From assembly GCF_020144665.1 (NCBI RefSeq), contig NZ_JAAHBQ010000061.1, positions 1-36,644 on the forward strand: a stretch of DNA of 36,644 nt, written 5' to 3'. The stretch is from Oscillatoria salina IIICB1 (lineage in GTDB: Bacteria; Cyanobacteriota; Cyanobacteriia; Cyanobacteriales; SIO1D9). The notes under the pieces were generated by a model, which was given only the letters and a program-made list of their open reading frames with translations, searched no databases and was not told the origin of the DNA. Of this stretch, positions 29,695-36,644 are shown piece after piece. Positions within the stretch are counted from its first letter, which is position 1, and the number at the start of each line of letters is the position of its first letter. The position numbers and the translations under genes were made by a program.

Positions 29695-29786
29695 TTTTTT
29701 GATTGGCAATTATTTCCTTGACAAAATTACGAGTTTCTGTATAAAAATATTTAATATTCTAAGTATTTAGACCGAATTTATTAATT

Positions 29787-30011
29787 TTATTCGCTCTCTA
29801 TTTCTACAAGTTTGTTTTTGGCAGATAAACCAGATTTTATTCGCACTTGACATTTTCTGACGGAAAATTTTTCAGCTAACAATTCAATTAATTCTTGATT
29901 CGCTTTTCCATCTCTGGGAGGAGATTTTAAACGTACTGTCAAACTTCCATCTGCTGCCGATTCGATTTTTTGATTTTTCGAGTTAGGTTTAACTTTAACT
30001 TGAATTTTCAT
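29787..30011 (-). CDS. DUF167 (YggU-like) family protein
   Basis: 74 residues, the typical size. [13 protein letters not shown] and [26 protein letters not shown], followed by [17 protein letters not shown], are the hallmark of DUF167. Function is not established. The start lies 3 bp after the stop of the DUF2809 gene, so they form a pair read from one transcript. Confidence 0.9.
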
Positions 30012-30014
30012 AAT

Positions 30015-30428
30015 TTAAATTTGCTTAGTTTTTCGGGAATTACAAATCAATTTTAGCCATAACCAGCCCAAGAAACAACCGATAACATAGTGAGGAAAAT
30101 CCCACCAAACAAAGGTTGTCCCAAGTAACATTTTACCAAGAAAAGTTGCTCTGACCGCAGCTAAAATTGGTGTTTGCCAAAGTTGGAGAAATTCTAAAGC
30201 ACAAGTGACACCAAAAACCCAGAAAGTAAGGGTAATTATGGCTTTTCGTTTCGGGATGAAAAAAAAGCCAAATAAACACCAAAAGATTTCGTATAAAATT
30301 GCACCGCCATAGTCATTTACCCACCAAGCGCCGATGCCATTATAGAATTTGGAATATAGACCGATTGGTGTCACAATTATTAGCGACCAGAGGGTGAGTA
30401 AGCGGCGATGAGTTAAAAAAGATTGCAT
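30015..30428 (-). CDS. DUF2809 family membrane protein
   Basis: 137 residues with about four membrane helices: LLTLWSLIIVTPIGLYSKFY; ILYEIFWCLFGFFFIP; AIITLTFWVFGVTCALEFLQL; and HYVIGCFLGWLWLKLI. The phrases WWVNDYGGAILYE, LEFLQLWQ and FVWWDFPHYVIGCFLG are those of DUF2809 proteins. Function not known. First gene of the pair with DUF167. A relic palindromic repeat lies upstream. Confidence 0.85.
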   Translation of the reverse strand: MQSFLTHRRLLTLWSLIIVTPIGLYSKFYNGIGAWWVNDYGGAILYEIFWCLFGFFFIPKRKAIITLTFWVFGVTCALEFLQLWQTPILAAVRATFLGKMLLGTTFVWWDFPHYVIGCFLGWLWLKLICNSRKTKQI

Positions 30429-30460
30429 TGAATTAGCTGAGGGCGAAATTTGGATAAGTG

Positions 30461-30492
30461 AGAGAGACGTTGCAGAAAACTGACGTCTCTCT
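30461..30492. repeat. GTTGC-palindrome dispersed repeat, degraded copy 6
   Basis: AGAGAGACGT (30461-30470) and ACGTCTCTCT (30483-30492) pair perfectly, but the centre is TGCAGAAAACTG where other copies have TGCATGCA. This is a decayed copy of the palindromic family, 33 bp upstream of the DUF2809 start. Confidence 0.7.
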
Positions 30493-30560
30493 ATCAGCTA
30501 TCAGGCAGGGTAAGAGTTGTAGCGCGTTGGCACTTCATAGCAGTTTCTCTAGCAATACGT

Positions 30561-30942
30561 TTATATGAAACTGCATACACGAAAACCAACATCACGGTAT
30601 ATGATATCATCCTTTCTCAAATCGTCATTACGGTTGGCAGAGCGAGATCGAAAAACGTTGCTTTTCCAGCCTCCGCCTCGAATTGGGGCGTATTCATCAT
30701 TGCCTCCAATTCTAGACTTGCCATCGTTAAAAGAAAGGCGATACTTTAACTAAATGCTGAGGAAAATCCTCAGCACCATTCCCCGTACTGCCCATCATAA
30801 ATTATCCACCAGGAATAGCTACCATTTCCAAAGTTATATTATTCCCTAAGTCTTCGGTGAACACCTGGGCTTGTTTCTTCTCTGTAGCTATAATTTCTCC
30901 CATCATCTGGCGCACCTTTCGTTTTATGTGGAAATTTCTCAT
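30561..30942 (-). pseudogene. SUMF1/formylglycine-generating-enzyme family gene, deleted and broken
   Basis: Read on the minus strand from ATG 30942, 46 codons end with LEMVAIPGG and a TAA (30804-30802). Past the stop the same frame continues FMMGSTGNGAEDFPQHLVKVSPFF. This is the N-terminal signature of SUMF1-family proteins (l.mv.iPgG.F.MGs...e.p.h.V.v..F). The next stop TAA follows. In a second frame 30749-30561 continues GKSRIGGNDEYAPIRGGGW, then RSRSANRND, and ends YRDVGFRVCSFI with TAA 30563-30561: the family's C-terminal signature (RGGsW....R.A.R......GFR). So the two ends of the gene survive, with a nonsense codon, a large internal deletion (well over 100 codons by family length) and a frameshift. 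It starts 32 bp after the WYL regulator's stop codon on the same strand. The plus-strand open frame over it is a mirror of this relic. Confidence 0.82.
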
Positions 30943-30973
30943 GCTATGACTAGACACTTATCTTGCGATCGGG

Positions 30974-31831
30974 TTACTCCCTGACGCTTAAACCGTAGTT
31001 TTGGCAAATAGATCGCGCTTCTGCAATGACGCGATCGCGCACACTCTGGGGTGCAACCACAATACAGTTCTTACCATAGGCGCGGACTTCTCTTAGTAGC
31101 CAATAGGTACTAGAAATACGACGAGTAATGATTCTCAAGTCTTCCTCTCGTCGATCGTCAACATCATTGGGCTTCGGTTCATAGGCAGTTGTGAGTCTAT
31201 CTAAAAAGTGTAATTGCACTTCAATGGTATCTAACCCATCTCGCCATGTTCCCGAAGTAGGAGTTGTAACTAAGTTCTGAATCCGATCTAAGCGAAATGT
31301 CCAATTGTGCTGCAACTCAGGAATATCTTTATTTCCCTCGGTTTCCTCACTCCAAATTTCGAGGTAATACCGCTTCTCACGAAAGCGGATTTTAGCATAG
31401 CAGACGGTAAATTCCCAATCTTTTTGAGTAGTGTCACGGTAGTACAGGCGAAAGGGTTGGCGATTGGCAATATGCCGATCCAGGATAATCCGCCACGCTT
31501 CCATCGGCTGACTAACACGCTCTAAAAGAGCTTGACGCAAGGGAGGTTCCGGGTTTCCACATTCTAGGATTAGTGCAGCTAGGGTTTGCGCTTCCCCAAT
31601 GTAGCCGGAATCTACCAGGACACTGGTAGCTTGTTCGAGGGACTGCACTTGCACTTCGTTGAGTTGGAAGGGGGGACTGAGGGAAAATTGGTCTTGCGCG
31701 ATCGCGACAATCAACCCCGATACGCTGGGTCTGTCACCCCACATAATATCAAGGCGGGTGGCAATTCTCTCTAGTTGTTCTTTTGTTCCTGGGGGAATGG
31801 ATAAGGTTAATGTTTCTGTTTTTCTAGGCAT
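30974..31831 (-). CDS. WYL-domain transcription regulator of the CRISPR-Cas locus
   Basis: 285 residues. The N-terminus (TLTLSIPPGTKEQLERIATRLD, then PSVSGLIVAIAQ) looks like a ribbon-helix-helix DNA-binding unit. A WYL domain follows at about 120-190: QPFRLYYRDT, RYYLEIW in place of the W-Y-L triad, and WTFRLDRIQNLV. A C-terminal WCX-like part has TYWLLREVRAYGKNCIVVAPQSVRDRVI. It is divergent from cas3 with 79 bp between them. The same place beside type I-D genes in Synechocystis is held by Sll7009, a WYL protein reported to repress a CRISPR locus. By analogy it would bind the shared promoter and respond to a ligand or nucleic acid. Confidence 0.88.
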   Translation of the reverse strand: MPRKTETLTLSIPPGTKEQLERIATRLDIMWGDRPSVSGLIVAIAQDQFSLSPPFQLNEVQVQSLEQATSVLVDSGYIGEAQTLAALILECGNPEPPLRQALLERVSQPMEAWRIILDRHIANRQPFRLYYRDTTQKDWEFTVCYAKIRFREKRYYLEIWSEETEGNKDIPELQHNWTFRLDRIQNLVTTPTSGTWRDGLDTIEVQLHFLDRLTTAYEPKPNDVDDRREEDLRIITRRISSTYWLLREVRAYGKNCIVVAPQSVRDRVIAEARSICQNYGLSVRE

Positions 31832-31844
31832 TCTCGATTTACAC

Positions 31845-31873
31845 TTGCACTCTCAGGAAATATCTGTCATATT
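31845..31873 (+). promoter_or_regulatory. Candidate promoter for cas3-cas10d
   Basis: TTGCAC (31845-31850) and CATATT (31868-31873) are spaced by 17 bp and lie 37 bp upstream of the cas3 ATG, in the only gap between the divergent WYL and cas3 genes. The fit to -35/-10 consensus is fair. The WYL regulator presumably acts in this 79-bp gap. Confidence 0.35.
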
Positions 31874-31910
31874 AGCAATAGTACAAATGCAGTAAGTAAG
31901 CGACAACCCG

Positions 31911-34109
31911 ATGAGGATAACACTGCTACCCCTATTTTCTAGGCAAAACCCCGATTCACAGCACTGCCCTCTAGGATGTCAGGGTCAGTGCAAAATCAAG
32001 CAAATCTCCCAACTTGGTCAAGATTCCCCTGCACCTTGTCCTTTGTCGTTGCACCAAGTGGAAACCTACAGGAAAGTAAGTGATTCAACCTTAGAAGCGA
32101 AAGTTATTTTCAATACAGCATTTACCAATGACGGAAAATCATTAGGAGCTTATTTACCCGCTTTCCTCCATAAGAAATATCGCATTCTTGGCTTATATCC
32201 CACCATTGAGCTTGTACGCGATCAAAAATATCAGCTTGAGAACTATCATCAACTTGTCAAATTAAATCCGCACAAGCGAGTCGATAGTTTATATGGTGCA
32301 GAGTTAGGTCGTCGGGTTGAGCAAAATAAAGCTACGGGAAGACGGGGAAGTAGGTTTAGCGAATTAAGAAAAGCGATTGGAAACCGACGCATTATCTTAA
32401 CCAACCCTGATATTTTTCACCTCATTACCCATCTGAGTTATCCAAATCTAACCTATTCACCCGATTACTTACTATATACTCTGACCCAAACACCAGATTT
32501 ATACTTTGCTGATGAATTTCACATTTTTGGAGAACACCAGGAAACCGCATTGATTAACAGTATGCTGTTGCTGCGTCATAGTCGCGAACAATCGCGTCCC
32601 CTGCGTTTTCTCTTCACCTCTGCAACTGCTAATGCTAACTTTGTGGAACAGTTAAAGAAATCTGGGTTTACCGTTGAGACAGTTCAAGGAGAGTATCTTA
32701 GTAAAGACCGAGAAGATGCGCCATTAGGATACCGTCAAATTAGTGAACGCATTGAACTCCATTTTGAAGAAGTTGAACAAGATAGTAATTCTCTTGACTG
32801 GCTGAATTTAAATCTTGAAAAAATTGCCCAAATCTTGAAGGATGAGAAACCCCGTAAAGGTCGAGGGTTAGTTATTCTTAATTCTATGGCGCGAGTGCAT
32901 CGGGTCGTCAGTCAGTTAAAGCAGAAATTAGAACCAGAGATTTTAGTCCGAGAAGTTAGCGGAATTGTAGGCGACCAGGAAAGAAGCAAAACCCGTGAAG
33001 AATTAGAAAATACACCCAAACCTATTTTAATTGTCGGAACATCTGCGGTTGATGTAGGGGTTGATTTTGAAGTTCACTTACTTATTTTTGAAACCACCGA
33101 CCTTTCTACGTTTTTACAACGTTTGGGTCGTTTGGGTCGTCGTTCTGGCTTTTCTCAATATCAAGCCTTTGTTTTAATTCCCAGTTGGATGAAGTGGATT
33201 TGGCAGAAAATCCAAGCTGAACTACAAGAAAATAACTTAGTTGACCGCCACCAATTTAATACCGAAATTGCAGCGAACGTTTTCAATTCACCTCCAACTT
33301 TTGAACAGTATCGTTATTACTGGGGAGGTTTACAAGCACAAGGAATGTTAAACGCTTTGAAAGGAGAAACAGTTAAGGGAAAAACACGAGGAAAAGAACG
33401 GAAGGAATTAAAAGCAAGAACCCAAAAACTGCGGGAATCTGTCACCAATGATTTATGTCATATTTACGGCGAACGTTTCCAAAATAAGGAAAGACAATGG
33501 TTTGCAATTTTTCAATCTGTCCGTGACGAACTCCTTCACTTTCGGGGAAGTTCAACCCTACAAGCTGCGGTTTGGGATGAAAACCAATCTCGCTTTTATA
33601 CCTACGACCTTTTACGACTCCTTCCTCATACGGAAGTTGAGGTGATTAGCAAAAAAGATTTTTTCACTGCTTTAGAAACAGCGAATCGCTCAACCTTTGA
33701 GTTTAATGAACGTTATCTTAAAATTTATCTCAGATTAACTCGCTGGTTAGAAATAGGTGAGCCATTCTCTCTAAAATTAGAAACTGATTGTTTGACACGA
33801 GAACTTGAAATTTGCACTTTAACTGAACTTGAAGGACTATTTCTTTCAGGACATCCCCAACAAACTGCTTTAAATCAAGCCTTAGAAGACTTAGAATTTC
33901 TCAGCTTTCTTGTTCCGGTTGCTAAAGACCCCCGAAGCCACTGGAAAATTAGAAATACTCTATTTTTACCCCCAACTTTTGGAGTTCACCGCTTAATTGA
34001 TAGCCAGGATAAAGCCTATGCTTGTGCATTTAATCAAGATGCACTTTTGCTGGAATCTTTGAAGTGGAAAATTGACCGTTGTACCCATAGTAACCCTTAT
34101 ATCTTTTAA
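31911..34109 (+). CDS. cas3: CRISPR-associated helicase Cas3, type I-D, without HD domain
   Basis: 732 residues. Superfamily 2 helicase motifs appear in order: NTAFTNDGKSL (Walker A-like, Lys76), ADEFH (motif II, Asp202-Glu203), FTSAT (motif III, 236-240), IVGTSAVDVGVDF (motif V, about 375-387) and QRLGRLGRR (motif VI, 404-412). No HD nuclease sequence is present at either end, as expected for type I-D, where the HD belongs to Cas10d. The N-terminus carries Cys19, Cys23, Cys27 and Cys43, a possible zinc site. It would unwind target DNA after recruitment by the Cas10d-containing effector. It ends 2 bp before cas10d. No GCGATCGC octamer occurs within it, unlike most of the window. Confidence 0.92.
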   Translation: MRITLLPLFSRQNPDSQHCPLGCQGQCKIKQISQLGQDSPAPCPLSLHQVETYRKVSDSTLEAKVIFNTAFTNDGKSLGAYLPAFLHKKYRILGLYPTIELVRDQKYQLENYHQLVKLNPHKRVDSLYGAELGRRVEQNKATGRRGSRFSELRKAIGNRRIILTNPDIFHLITHLSYPNLTYSPDYLLYTLTQTPDLYFADEFHIFGEHQETALINSMLLLRHSREQSRPLRFLFTSATANANFVEQLKKSGFTVETVQGEYLSKDREDAPLGYRQISERIELHFEEVEQDSNSLDWLNLNLEKIAQILKDEKPRKGRGLVILNSMARVHRVVSQLKQKLEPEILVREVSGIVGDQERSKTREELENTPKPILIVGTSAVDVGVDFEVHLLIFETTDLSTFLQRLGRLGRRSGFSQYQAFVLIPSWMKWIWQKIQAELQENNLVDRHQFNTEIAANVFNSPPTFEQYRYYWGGLQAQGMLNALKGETVKGKTRGKERKELKARTQKLRESVTNDLCHIYGERFQNKERQWFAIFQSVRDELLHFRGSSTLQAAVWDENQSRFYTYDLLRLLPHTEVEVISKKDFFTALETANRSTFEFNERYLKIYLRLTRWLEIGEPFSLKLETDCLTRELEICTLTELEGLFLSGHPQQTALNQALEDLEFLSFLVPVAKDPRSHWKIRNTLFLPPTFGVHRLIDSQDKAYACAFNQDALLLESLKWKIDRCTHSNPYIF

Positions 34110-34111
34110 CC

Positions 34112-36644
34112 ATGACGACTCTCTTACAAAGACTTCTCATCGAAACCCTCCCTAAATCTGAAAAGGAATCTGTGCTTGGTGAGTTTATTCAAACTATTTT
34201 ACCCGCCGTTGAACGAGAATTTTCAGTTCCTGCAATGGGAGGTACAGAAGACAAATTCTCAAAGAATGCAGACCAAAGTTTGATGGTTCATGTCCTAAAT
34301 GGACTCATTACCGCTTGGAACTTGAGTAAAGAATTAGACGAAGAACTTAGCGAAGAAGAAGCGCGGTTATTATGTCTAGGTTTCACCCTCCATGACTATG
34401 ACAAATATAACCACTACTGTCCTATACAACCCCCTCCTGAACTACAAGAAACCGATAAAATTGTTAATCTTTGTTATCAACTTGCCCAAAAATTAAATTT
34501 TGCAAAATTTTGGGAAGACTGGGAAGATTATCTGTTAGATATTTGCTTCCTTGCACAAAACACACAGGGGAAATGGGGAAGTAATCTAGATTCTCGACAA
34601 TGGGAAAACGAACGCACTTTTCAAATTGCATTTCCTGAACGTTTGCGACTCTGTGAATTACTCCGATTTGGTGATATTGCAGTTCATATCCAAGACCCAG
34701 CAGAAGTAAGGTTTTTAACCAGTACAGGTCAATCTCTGCAAGCCTGTTTAGACCAACTCGAAATTGAGAAAGTCCTGGTTTATCATCGCTTGCGGGATTG
34801 TCGTGGTTTAATCACTAATCATATTCATAATGCAGTCACTCAATTCGTCACTGAAAAGGGTTGGATACCAATTATTTATTTTGCAGATGGCGTAGTATAT
34901 CTTGCACCAGAAACTTATGAAGTTCCAAGTTTAACAGATATTCAAAATACAGCTTGGCAACGGATTCTTAAGGGAAATTTTAAGTATAACGAAGATGGTT
35001 TAGAGTCTTATATTATAAGAGGAGAAACTGGATTTGTAAGAGGACGTGAAGGTTTAAAAGCAGCCCCTTTAGCCTTTGAGCTATTTACTCCATTCGATTT
35101 ACTTTGCCAACTTCCAAAGATAATAAAAACTAAGATAAATAACTCTAAAGCCTCCGATCGCTTAGAAGCAAGGAAACTGTCTTTGTCTCAACCGGAAAAA
35201 GAAAGACTAAATTTATATGCTGATGTTTGGGCAGATCGTATTGCAGAATTTATAACATTTGTACAAAGAAAATTTTTTCAAGAGCCTGGAAAACGTAAGT
35301 TATTTGTCAACTGGGTATTAGGAAAGCTAAATTTAGAGAAAATATTTTCTTACGAACAAACTCAAATTGAATCTGGAGGTAATAACTACGGATGGTATTG
35401 GGTAGCAACTCATTTCCTTGCAGAGAATAAGTTCGATCGACACCCCGATTCAGAGATATTGACTAAATTTCTTAATGATCTGGGTTATGAGCTTGCAGAT
35501 TGGGCAAACAAAAATGATTATCTCCCAGAATATTTTAGTCCGACTCATCAGTCTTTTAACAGTTACTTAGCCAGCTATTTGGAGTTGTCAGGTTGGGAAG
35601 GAAAAAATCCTAATTTCGAGGAAGAACTTAGTGCATATACAGTAGCTAAATCCCCAAATAACTGGATCTGCTCTCTAAGTAGCGGAGAATTTGTTGCAGA
35701 GGAACAGTTGGTAACGATGGTTTTATTCCAACCGCAACTTTACAGTAACAAAAATGTACTTGGAGGTCGCCAAATAAAACGAGGGATTTCTAAAATTTGG
35801 TCATTAGAAATGCTATTACGTCAGACTGAATGGTCTGTACCTATGGGAAAAAATTTTGAAAAGAAAAGACCAGTTTTTCTCTATATTTTTCCAGCTTACG
35901 TTTACTCTCCCCAAACTGCTACAGCTATCAAAATATTAGCTAAACAAATGGAACGCATAAGTCTGTGGGATGTACACAAACATCGGGATGATTTACAAAA
36001 TCTTCCTTGGCAAGGCAGAAAACCTAAAGCAGGGCGGTTTGACGAAAATTATGTGACTACAGAAATGCCTTTTGTAGCAATTCACATGATGACTCCTCCA
36101 CCCAAGGGTAAAGATGACAAACCCACTGTGACAGAATCGTGGGTTGAACCTTTGTTTAAAGCCTTAGCTTTACCACAACTGCTAGGTGTGAAAGTTGTTG
36201 TAACTCCTAGTCCAGAAATCCTTTATAGCAGTGATAAAGACTTTCTAGAATCCGTCAAACTTGATGGTGTCCCTGACTTCTGGACGTTACTTGGGTTTGA
36301 TAGTTCGTTGCGGATACAAGACATTAAACCTGCTTTAGAAAAATTGCTGGTTATCTACAGCATACATTTGGACAACCGTAGTAGCAAAAAAGATGCCCGT
36401 TGGTCAGCGTTAAATAGCACCGTTAGGGAGGTGATAACTGATGTTTTAAATGTGTTCGCGATCGCACAACAAGGACTCCGCAGTCAAAAACATGAACCCT
36501 TACCCGAAGAAGTTAAACAATACTGGCAATTTGCCGATCTATTAGCCCAAGGAGACTCAATGAAAGAAAATCGACTCAAATTAACTAAACGCTTAGTCAG
36601 CGAATATCGCTACTTTTATCAAGTCCGAATTAGCGAATCGAGTC
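34112..36644 (+). CDS. cas10d: Cas10d (Csc3), type I-D CRISPR large subunit, 3' end outside window
   Basis: ATG 34112 opens a frame that is uninterrupted to the window edge (844 codons), so the C-terminus is missing; family members are usually around 900-1000 residues or more. The HD nuclease is at the N-terminus: His60 (LMVHVLNG), His94-Asp95 in GFTLHDYDKYN and Asp188 in LLRFGDIAVH. A palm-like strand follows, PIIYFADGVVYLAP (about 253-266), as in Cas10 proteins. Later parts (SGEFVAEEQLVTMVLFQPQ; KRPVFLYIFPAYVYSP) fit Csc3. It is the large subunit of the type I-D effector, combining target binding with DNA cleavage, and works with the Cas3 helicase encoded upstream. cas7d, cas5d, cas6, cas4, cas1 and cas2 would be expected beyond the edge. 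Confidence 0.9.
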   Translation, partial: MTTLLQRLLIETLPKSEKESVLGEFIQTILPAVEREFSVPAMGGTEDKFSKNADQSLMVHVLNGLITAWNLSKELDEELSEEEARLLCLGFTLHDYDKYNHYCPIQPPPELQETDKIVNLCYQLAQKLNFAKFWEDWEDYLLDICFLAQNTQGKWGSNLDSRQWENERTFQIAFPERLRLCELLRFGDIAVHIQDPAEVRFLTSTGQSLQACLDQLEIEKVLVYHRLRDCRGLITNHIHNAVTQFVTEKGWIPIIYFADGVVYLAPETYEVPSLTDIQNTAWQRILKGNFKYNEDGLESYIIRGETGFVRGREGLKAAPLAFELFTPFDLLCQLPKIIKTKINNSKASDRLEARKLSLSQPEKERLNLYADVWADRIAEFITFVQRKFFQEPGKRKLFVNWVLGKLNLEKIFSYEQTQIESGGNNYGWYWVATHFLAENKFDRHPDSEILTKFLNDLGYELADWANKNDYLPEYFSPTHQSFNSYLASYLELSGWEGKNPNFEEELSAYTVAKSPNNWICSLSSGEFVAEEQLVTMVLFQPQLYSNKNVLGGRQIKRGISKIWSLEMLLRQTEWSVPMGKNFEKKRPVFLYIFPAYVYSPQTATAIKILAKQMERISLWDVHKHRDDLQNLPWQGRKPKAGRFDENYVTTEMPFVAIHMMTPPPKGKDDKPTVTESWVEPLFKALALPQLLGVKVVVTPSPEILYSSDKDFLESVKLDGVPDFWTLLGFDSSLRIQDIKPALEKLLVIYSIHLDNRSSKKDARWSALNSTVREVITDVLNVFAIAQQGLRSQKHEPLPEEVKQYWQFADLLAQGDSMKENRLKLTKRLVSEYRYFYQVRISESS

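Follow-up and report, generated by a model that had tools for sequence, protein, structure and literature searches.

In the minus strand of the genome segment studied here, positions 30900..30561 hold the remnant of a gene for an FGE-sulfatase/SUMF1 domain (PF03781; FGE, formylglycine-generating enzyme). The segment, called the window below, comprises positions 1 to 36,644 of contig NZ_JAAHBQ010000061.1 from the cyanobacterium Oscillatoria salina IIICB1 (36,644 nucleotides). The remnant, or relic, is almost certainly a non-functional pseudogene, derived from a duplication of an FGE-sulfatase-domain gene in this lineage, and the sister of the relic is open on another contig of the same genome (contig C125; the genome comprises 5.96 Mb in 163 contigs).

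According to the course of events that the comparison suggests, an FGE-sulfatase-domain gene would have been duplicated in the lineage, with one copy still open on C125, where it forms the C-terminal domain of a DUF6745-FGE protein of 899 aa. The other copy would have become the relic, whose domain is missing 446 bp from its middle, which contains a stop, and which shares no recognisable gene start with the sister. The relic presumably makes no protein; its death would be recent and preceded by a long period under selection. It can be described as an ordinary and probably recent pseudogene of a widespread domain: of 388 genomes of the order (own genome included), 244 have a match at E<=1e-75, where up to six candidates were scored in each genome.

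Structure of the relic and its sister gene

Reading the minus strand of positions 30500-31000 in three frames gives GEIIATEKKQAQVFTEDLGNNITLEMVAIPGG, a stop and FMMGS...VSPFF in one frame, and NDGKSRIGG...RGGGW...RSANR...GFRVCSFI followed by a stop in another. An initial annotation, made from the letters alone, had seen in these pieces a SUMF1-family relic with both ends of the domain and the succession LEMVAIPGG, stop, FMMGS, and had proposed an internal deletion with a frameshift. Both proposals are borne out by the frames and by the match to the sister gene described below. Comparison of the relic translations with PF03781, which had been suggested as a check, was less informative. The front piece scored 15.8 bits (E 0.011), below the cut-off of 23.3, the back piece alone had no Pfam match, and a search of the own genome with PF03781 did not list the relic. 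Domain models alone would therefore leave the identity of the relic open. It is the sister gene that supports the assignment, and the match to this gene within the same genome is decisive.

The sister gene (C125:948-3647, minus strand) encodes an open protein of 899 aa with a C-terminal FGE domain (PF03781, 152.4 bits, E 4.3e-44) and a DUF6745 domain upstream of it (96.2 bits, above the cut-off). Four FGE domains were found in the own genome by the PF03781 profile search, all of them above the cut-off. The front block of the relic (30730..30900, minus strand) corresponds to the N-terminal part of the FGE-sulfatase domain and contains the in-frame stop after LEMVAIPGG; it matches C125:1563-1733 with 87% DNA identity over 171 bp (E 1.6e-54). 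The back block (30561..30729, minus strand) corresponds to the C-terminal part with RGGGW...RSANR...GFR, ends at about its stop codon, and matches C125:948-1116 with 80% DNA identity over 169 bp (E 1.4e-38). The two blocks are collinear with the sister. They abut at the deletion junction (30729..30730, minus strand), whereas in the sister they are separated by the 446 bp of C125:1117-1562. As 446 leaves a remainder of 2 on division by three, the reading frame is lost at the junction, so that, compared with its open homologue, the relic is disrupted by an in-frame stop and by a 446-bp gap. A clear direct repeat at the junction was not seen by eye.

Homology to the sister starts sharply at 30900 and ends at about the stop codon at 30561. 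Of the span 30561-30942 that had originally been assigned to the relic, positions 30561..30900 are thus homologous, while the remaining 42 bp (30901-30942) have no detectable homology to the sister. The whole stretch between the stop codon of the upstream gene, a WYL/WCX-type regulator gene, and the relic (30901..30973, minus strand) is unlike the upstream part of the sister. A longer relic reaching to 30942, or remnants of DUF6745, were considered and rejected, as the 899-aa sister protein matched the window at the two known places only. The front alignment obtained with this query extends to 30987, but the 29 residues past 30900 add only about three identities (50/86 as compared to 47/57 in the shorter alignment), and no separate match to the N-terminal part of the sister was obtained within the window.

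The domain of the sister scores above the PF03781 cut-off, in contrast to the relic pieces, and belongs to a family that includes SUMF1, PvdO and EgtB-like proteins. Its best relative of solved structure is PvdO (5hha, E 2.2e-30), followed by formylglycine-generating enzymes. In translations of both relic and sister, the second residue after the tryptophan of the RGGxW motif is S by eye; in FGE enzymes, which have two copper-binding cysteines after this motif, the first of them occupies this position. The N-terminal part of the sister, with DUF6745, matched none of the 32 nearest FGE open reading frames (ORFs) at E<=10, although it matched itself. These 32 ORFs include three of the own genome, and eight of them have an open 5' end at the border of their locus or contig. 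The unbroken DUF6745-FGE fusion may deserve a separate look. Beside the sister gene, C125 3912-6580 is occupied by Ig-like and RHS-repeat ORFs running off the contig; two of the three ORFs of this contig that were scanned with Pfam match these two families.

Kinship and decay

The C125 gene is the nearest sequence found for the relic and carries the same FGE domain subtype, with 90 of 111 residues identical on shared columns. The two differ in that the sister is open and has a DUF6745 domain, while in the relic the 446 bp are missing and the frame is lost. The comparison extended to 32 further FGE domains, of which 29 come from other genomes and three from the own genome; the best of them shares 55 of 109 residues with the relic. 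In a FastTree tree, relic and sister are grouped with a support of 1.000 among these 32 domains. This suggests that the duplication is specific to this lineage, as far as it was sampled.

Relic and sister differ mainly at silent sites. Of 55 differences in total, 30 fall on the third base of a codon, compared with an expectation of one third (p 0.0014). The dN/dS ratio of the pair is 0.21 (NG86; bootstrap 0.10-0.40; 111 codons, with the two stop-bearing codons omitted from the alignment), and three methods applied over both blocks gave values from 0.18 to 0.28. A copy drifting freely since the split would push the ratio of the pair towards 0.5 or higher, so that a value of 0.21 indicates that both copies were probably under selection for a long time. 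Both would have been under selection for most of the time since the duplication, and the relic probably died late.

Several points weigh against this interpretation or limit it. The dating of the death is drawn from a short alignment and could be disturbed by gene conversion. The first 35 bp of the relic are identical to the sister, which could be a trace of such a conversion. Moreover, the 60 genomes searched for relatives (own included) are, the own genome aside, of the same order only, and the best match of the WYL gene is only 62% identical. Age and origin of the relic at this locus are therefore not directly datable.

The same identical bases bear on the idea of a silent cassette that still recombines with the C125 gene. 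The front edge of the relic is abrupt and opens with the 35 identical bases, after which identity declines. Past the first 60 bp, however, 30-bp bins show about 70-95% identity, which is unlike ongoing exchange, and a single short patch of high identity could be due to chance or constraint. A recombining cassette is thus extremely unlikely, and it would be just as far-fetched to regard the relic and the open DUF6745-FGE gene together as a small system that diversifies a lectin-like sensor by recombination. The pseudogene interpretation is retained here. The relic has little weight on its own, since it is a paralogue that has decayed and its domain is very common.

Relation to diversity-generating retroelements

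The back block had also been likened to the variable repeat of a diversity-generating retroelement (DGR), with lectin-like SUMF1 domains given as the usual DGR targets in cyanobacteria. The PDB matches of the sister domain include Treponema variable protein 1 (2y3c), a DGR target, in agreement with the title of a reference. The relic resembles DGR targets with FGE/C-type-lectin folds in fold class and in the C-terminal place of the region (PMC10907252). According to this work, the targets of one Thiohalocapsa DGR contain FGE domains, regarded as a subtype of C-type lectins, and those DGRs of multicellular cyanobacteria that belong to one clade commonly have vWA-domain targets (PMC10907252). 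The general premise of the initial annotation is thus not without foundation, but a DGR was not found in this case.

The relic differs from known DGR targets in that neither a DGR reverse transcriptase or a template repeat nor the adenine pattern was found for it. A PF00078 search of the genome yielded two reverse transcriptases. These were identified with PADLOC as an RT-Cas1 fusion (RT, reverse transcriptase; best model Cas1_IIIb, 350.9 bits) and a retron XIII reverse transcriptase (656.8 bits). The DGR reverse transcriptase of phage BPP-1 (Brt), used as a control, was recognised by PF00078 with 61.6 bits. When Brt itself was used as a query against the own genome, only two matches were obtained, the RT-Cas1 fusion (E 6.6e-8) and a fragment (E 0.75), and no DGR reverse transcriptase. 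A search for a template repeat with the back block of the sister returned the two known copies as the only ones below E 0.1, with the next best match at E 0.135. Neither of the expected DGR components was thus found in the 163 contigs, although an assembly gap could hide a DGR or a template repeat in a genome in this state.

The pattern of changes points in the same direction. Adenines of the back block are not enriched for changes, with 6 of 47 adenines of the sister changed as compared to 27 of 122 other sites (p 0.20). The back block is more changed than the front block, but not significantly so (33/169 versus 22/171, p 0.11), and, as described above, third codon positions are favoured. A degenerate variable repeat whose reverse transcriptase and template repeat have since been lost is therefore scarcely credible as an explanation for the back block.

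Relation to the CRISPR genes

The relic lies next to genes of a type I-D CRISPR (clustered regularly interspaced short palindromic repeats) module at the end of the contig. Directly upstream of it and separate from it is the WYL/WCX-type regulator gene (30974..31831, minus strand), the product of which matches WCX with 34.5 bits (above the cut-off), WYL with 17.7 bits (below the cut-off) and the CRISPR-associated WYL model of PADLOC with 57.3 bits. Next along the window are cas3' of type I-D (31911..34109, plus strand; TIGR03158, 182.3 bits versus a cut-off of 69.1) and cas10d/csc3 of type I-D (34112..36643, plus strand; TIGR03174, 458.5 bits versus a cut-off of 60), which runs off the contig end.

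This arrangement had led to the suggestion that an accessory gene was once carried with the CRISPR module, and the relic could accordingly be a lost accessory gene that was co-transcribed with the WYL regulator. The relic is indeed on the strand of the WYL gene, as had been stated; it begins 31 bp past the WYL stop when the earlier start is used, and 73 bp past it by homology. The suggestion was compared with the surroundings of related WYL genes. Of 291 genomes of the order, 158 have a WYL match at E<=1e-40 (own included), and a search of genome contigs gave four loci (Nostoc, Anabaena, Richelia and a cyanobacterial metagenome-assembled genome). Flanks were compared for 30 loci of the order including the own one, that is 29 others, with 1.5 kb examined, and for these four loci, with up to 5 kb examined, resulting in 33 related loci in two sets that may overlap. 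In the examined flanks, a cas3 match was present at 19 of the 33 loci and an FGE match (E<=0.001) at none of them. The neighbourhood of WYL and cas3 is recurrent, whereas that of the FGE relic and WYL is not. In addition, no PADLOC model matched the four other ORFs on the 6.6-kb contig of the sister gene. An accessory gene of the CRISPR module is thus very unlikely, and the place of the pseudogene beside the CRISPR genes is most likely due to chance. The proximity of a dead FGE domain to cas genes is, on its own, no evidence of a DGR or of a CRISPR accessory gene.

Other features of the locus and the genome

A dispersed repeat of 48 bp (30512..30559, minus strand) starts one base past the end of the relic. 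It is present in three copies in the genome, at window positions 30512-30559, L106 1501-1548 and L107 548-595, of which the two outside the window are located on contigs C42 (96%) and C2 (90%), both between longer ORFs. The 33-base core pattern of this repeat, with up to three mismatches, has no occurrence in the own genome beyond these three and is absent from the other 194 of 195 searched genomes of the order. Positions 30461-30492, between the relic and a DUF2809 gene, form an inverted repeat with perfect 10-bp arms, a loop of 12 bases and no T run. A scan for short repeats in 29700-31000 gave one 12-nt inverted pair with one arm at the front edge of the relic (30889-30900), which was taken as chance. 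No Rfam match at the gathering threshold was obtained for 30380-31000. In 30380-31950, there are no terminator-like sites (1.5 expected) and four promoter-like sites (2.1 expected).

The RT-Cas1 fusion is encoded at L025 325-2307 (contig C29), with CRISPR-like repeated words visible by eye in its flank; together, these make a second CRISPR system in the genome likely. The retron-XIII-like reverse transcriptase is encoded at L026 1060-2769 (contig C37) and adjoins a gene for a ParA/AAA_31-type ATPase.
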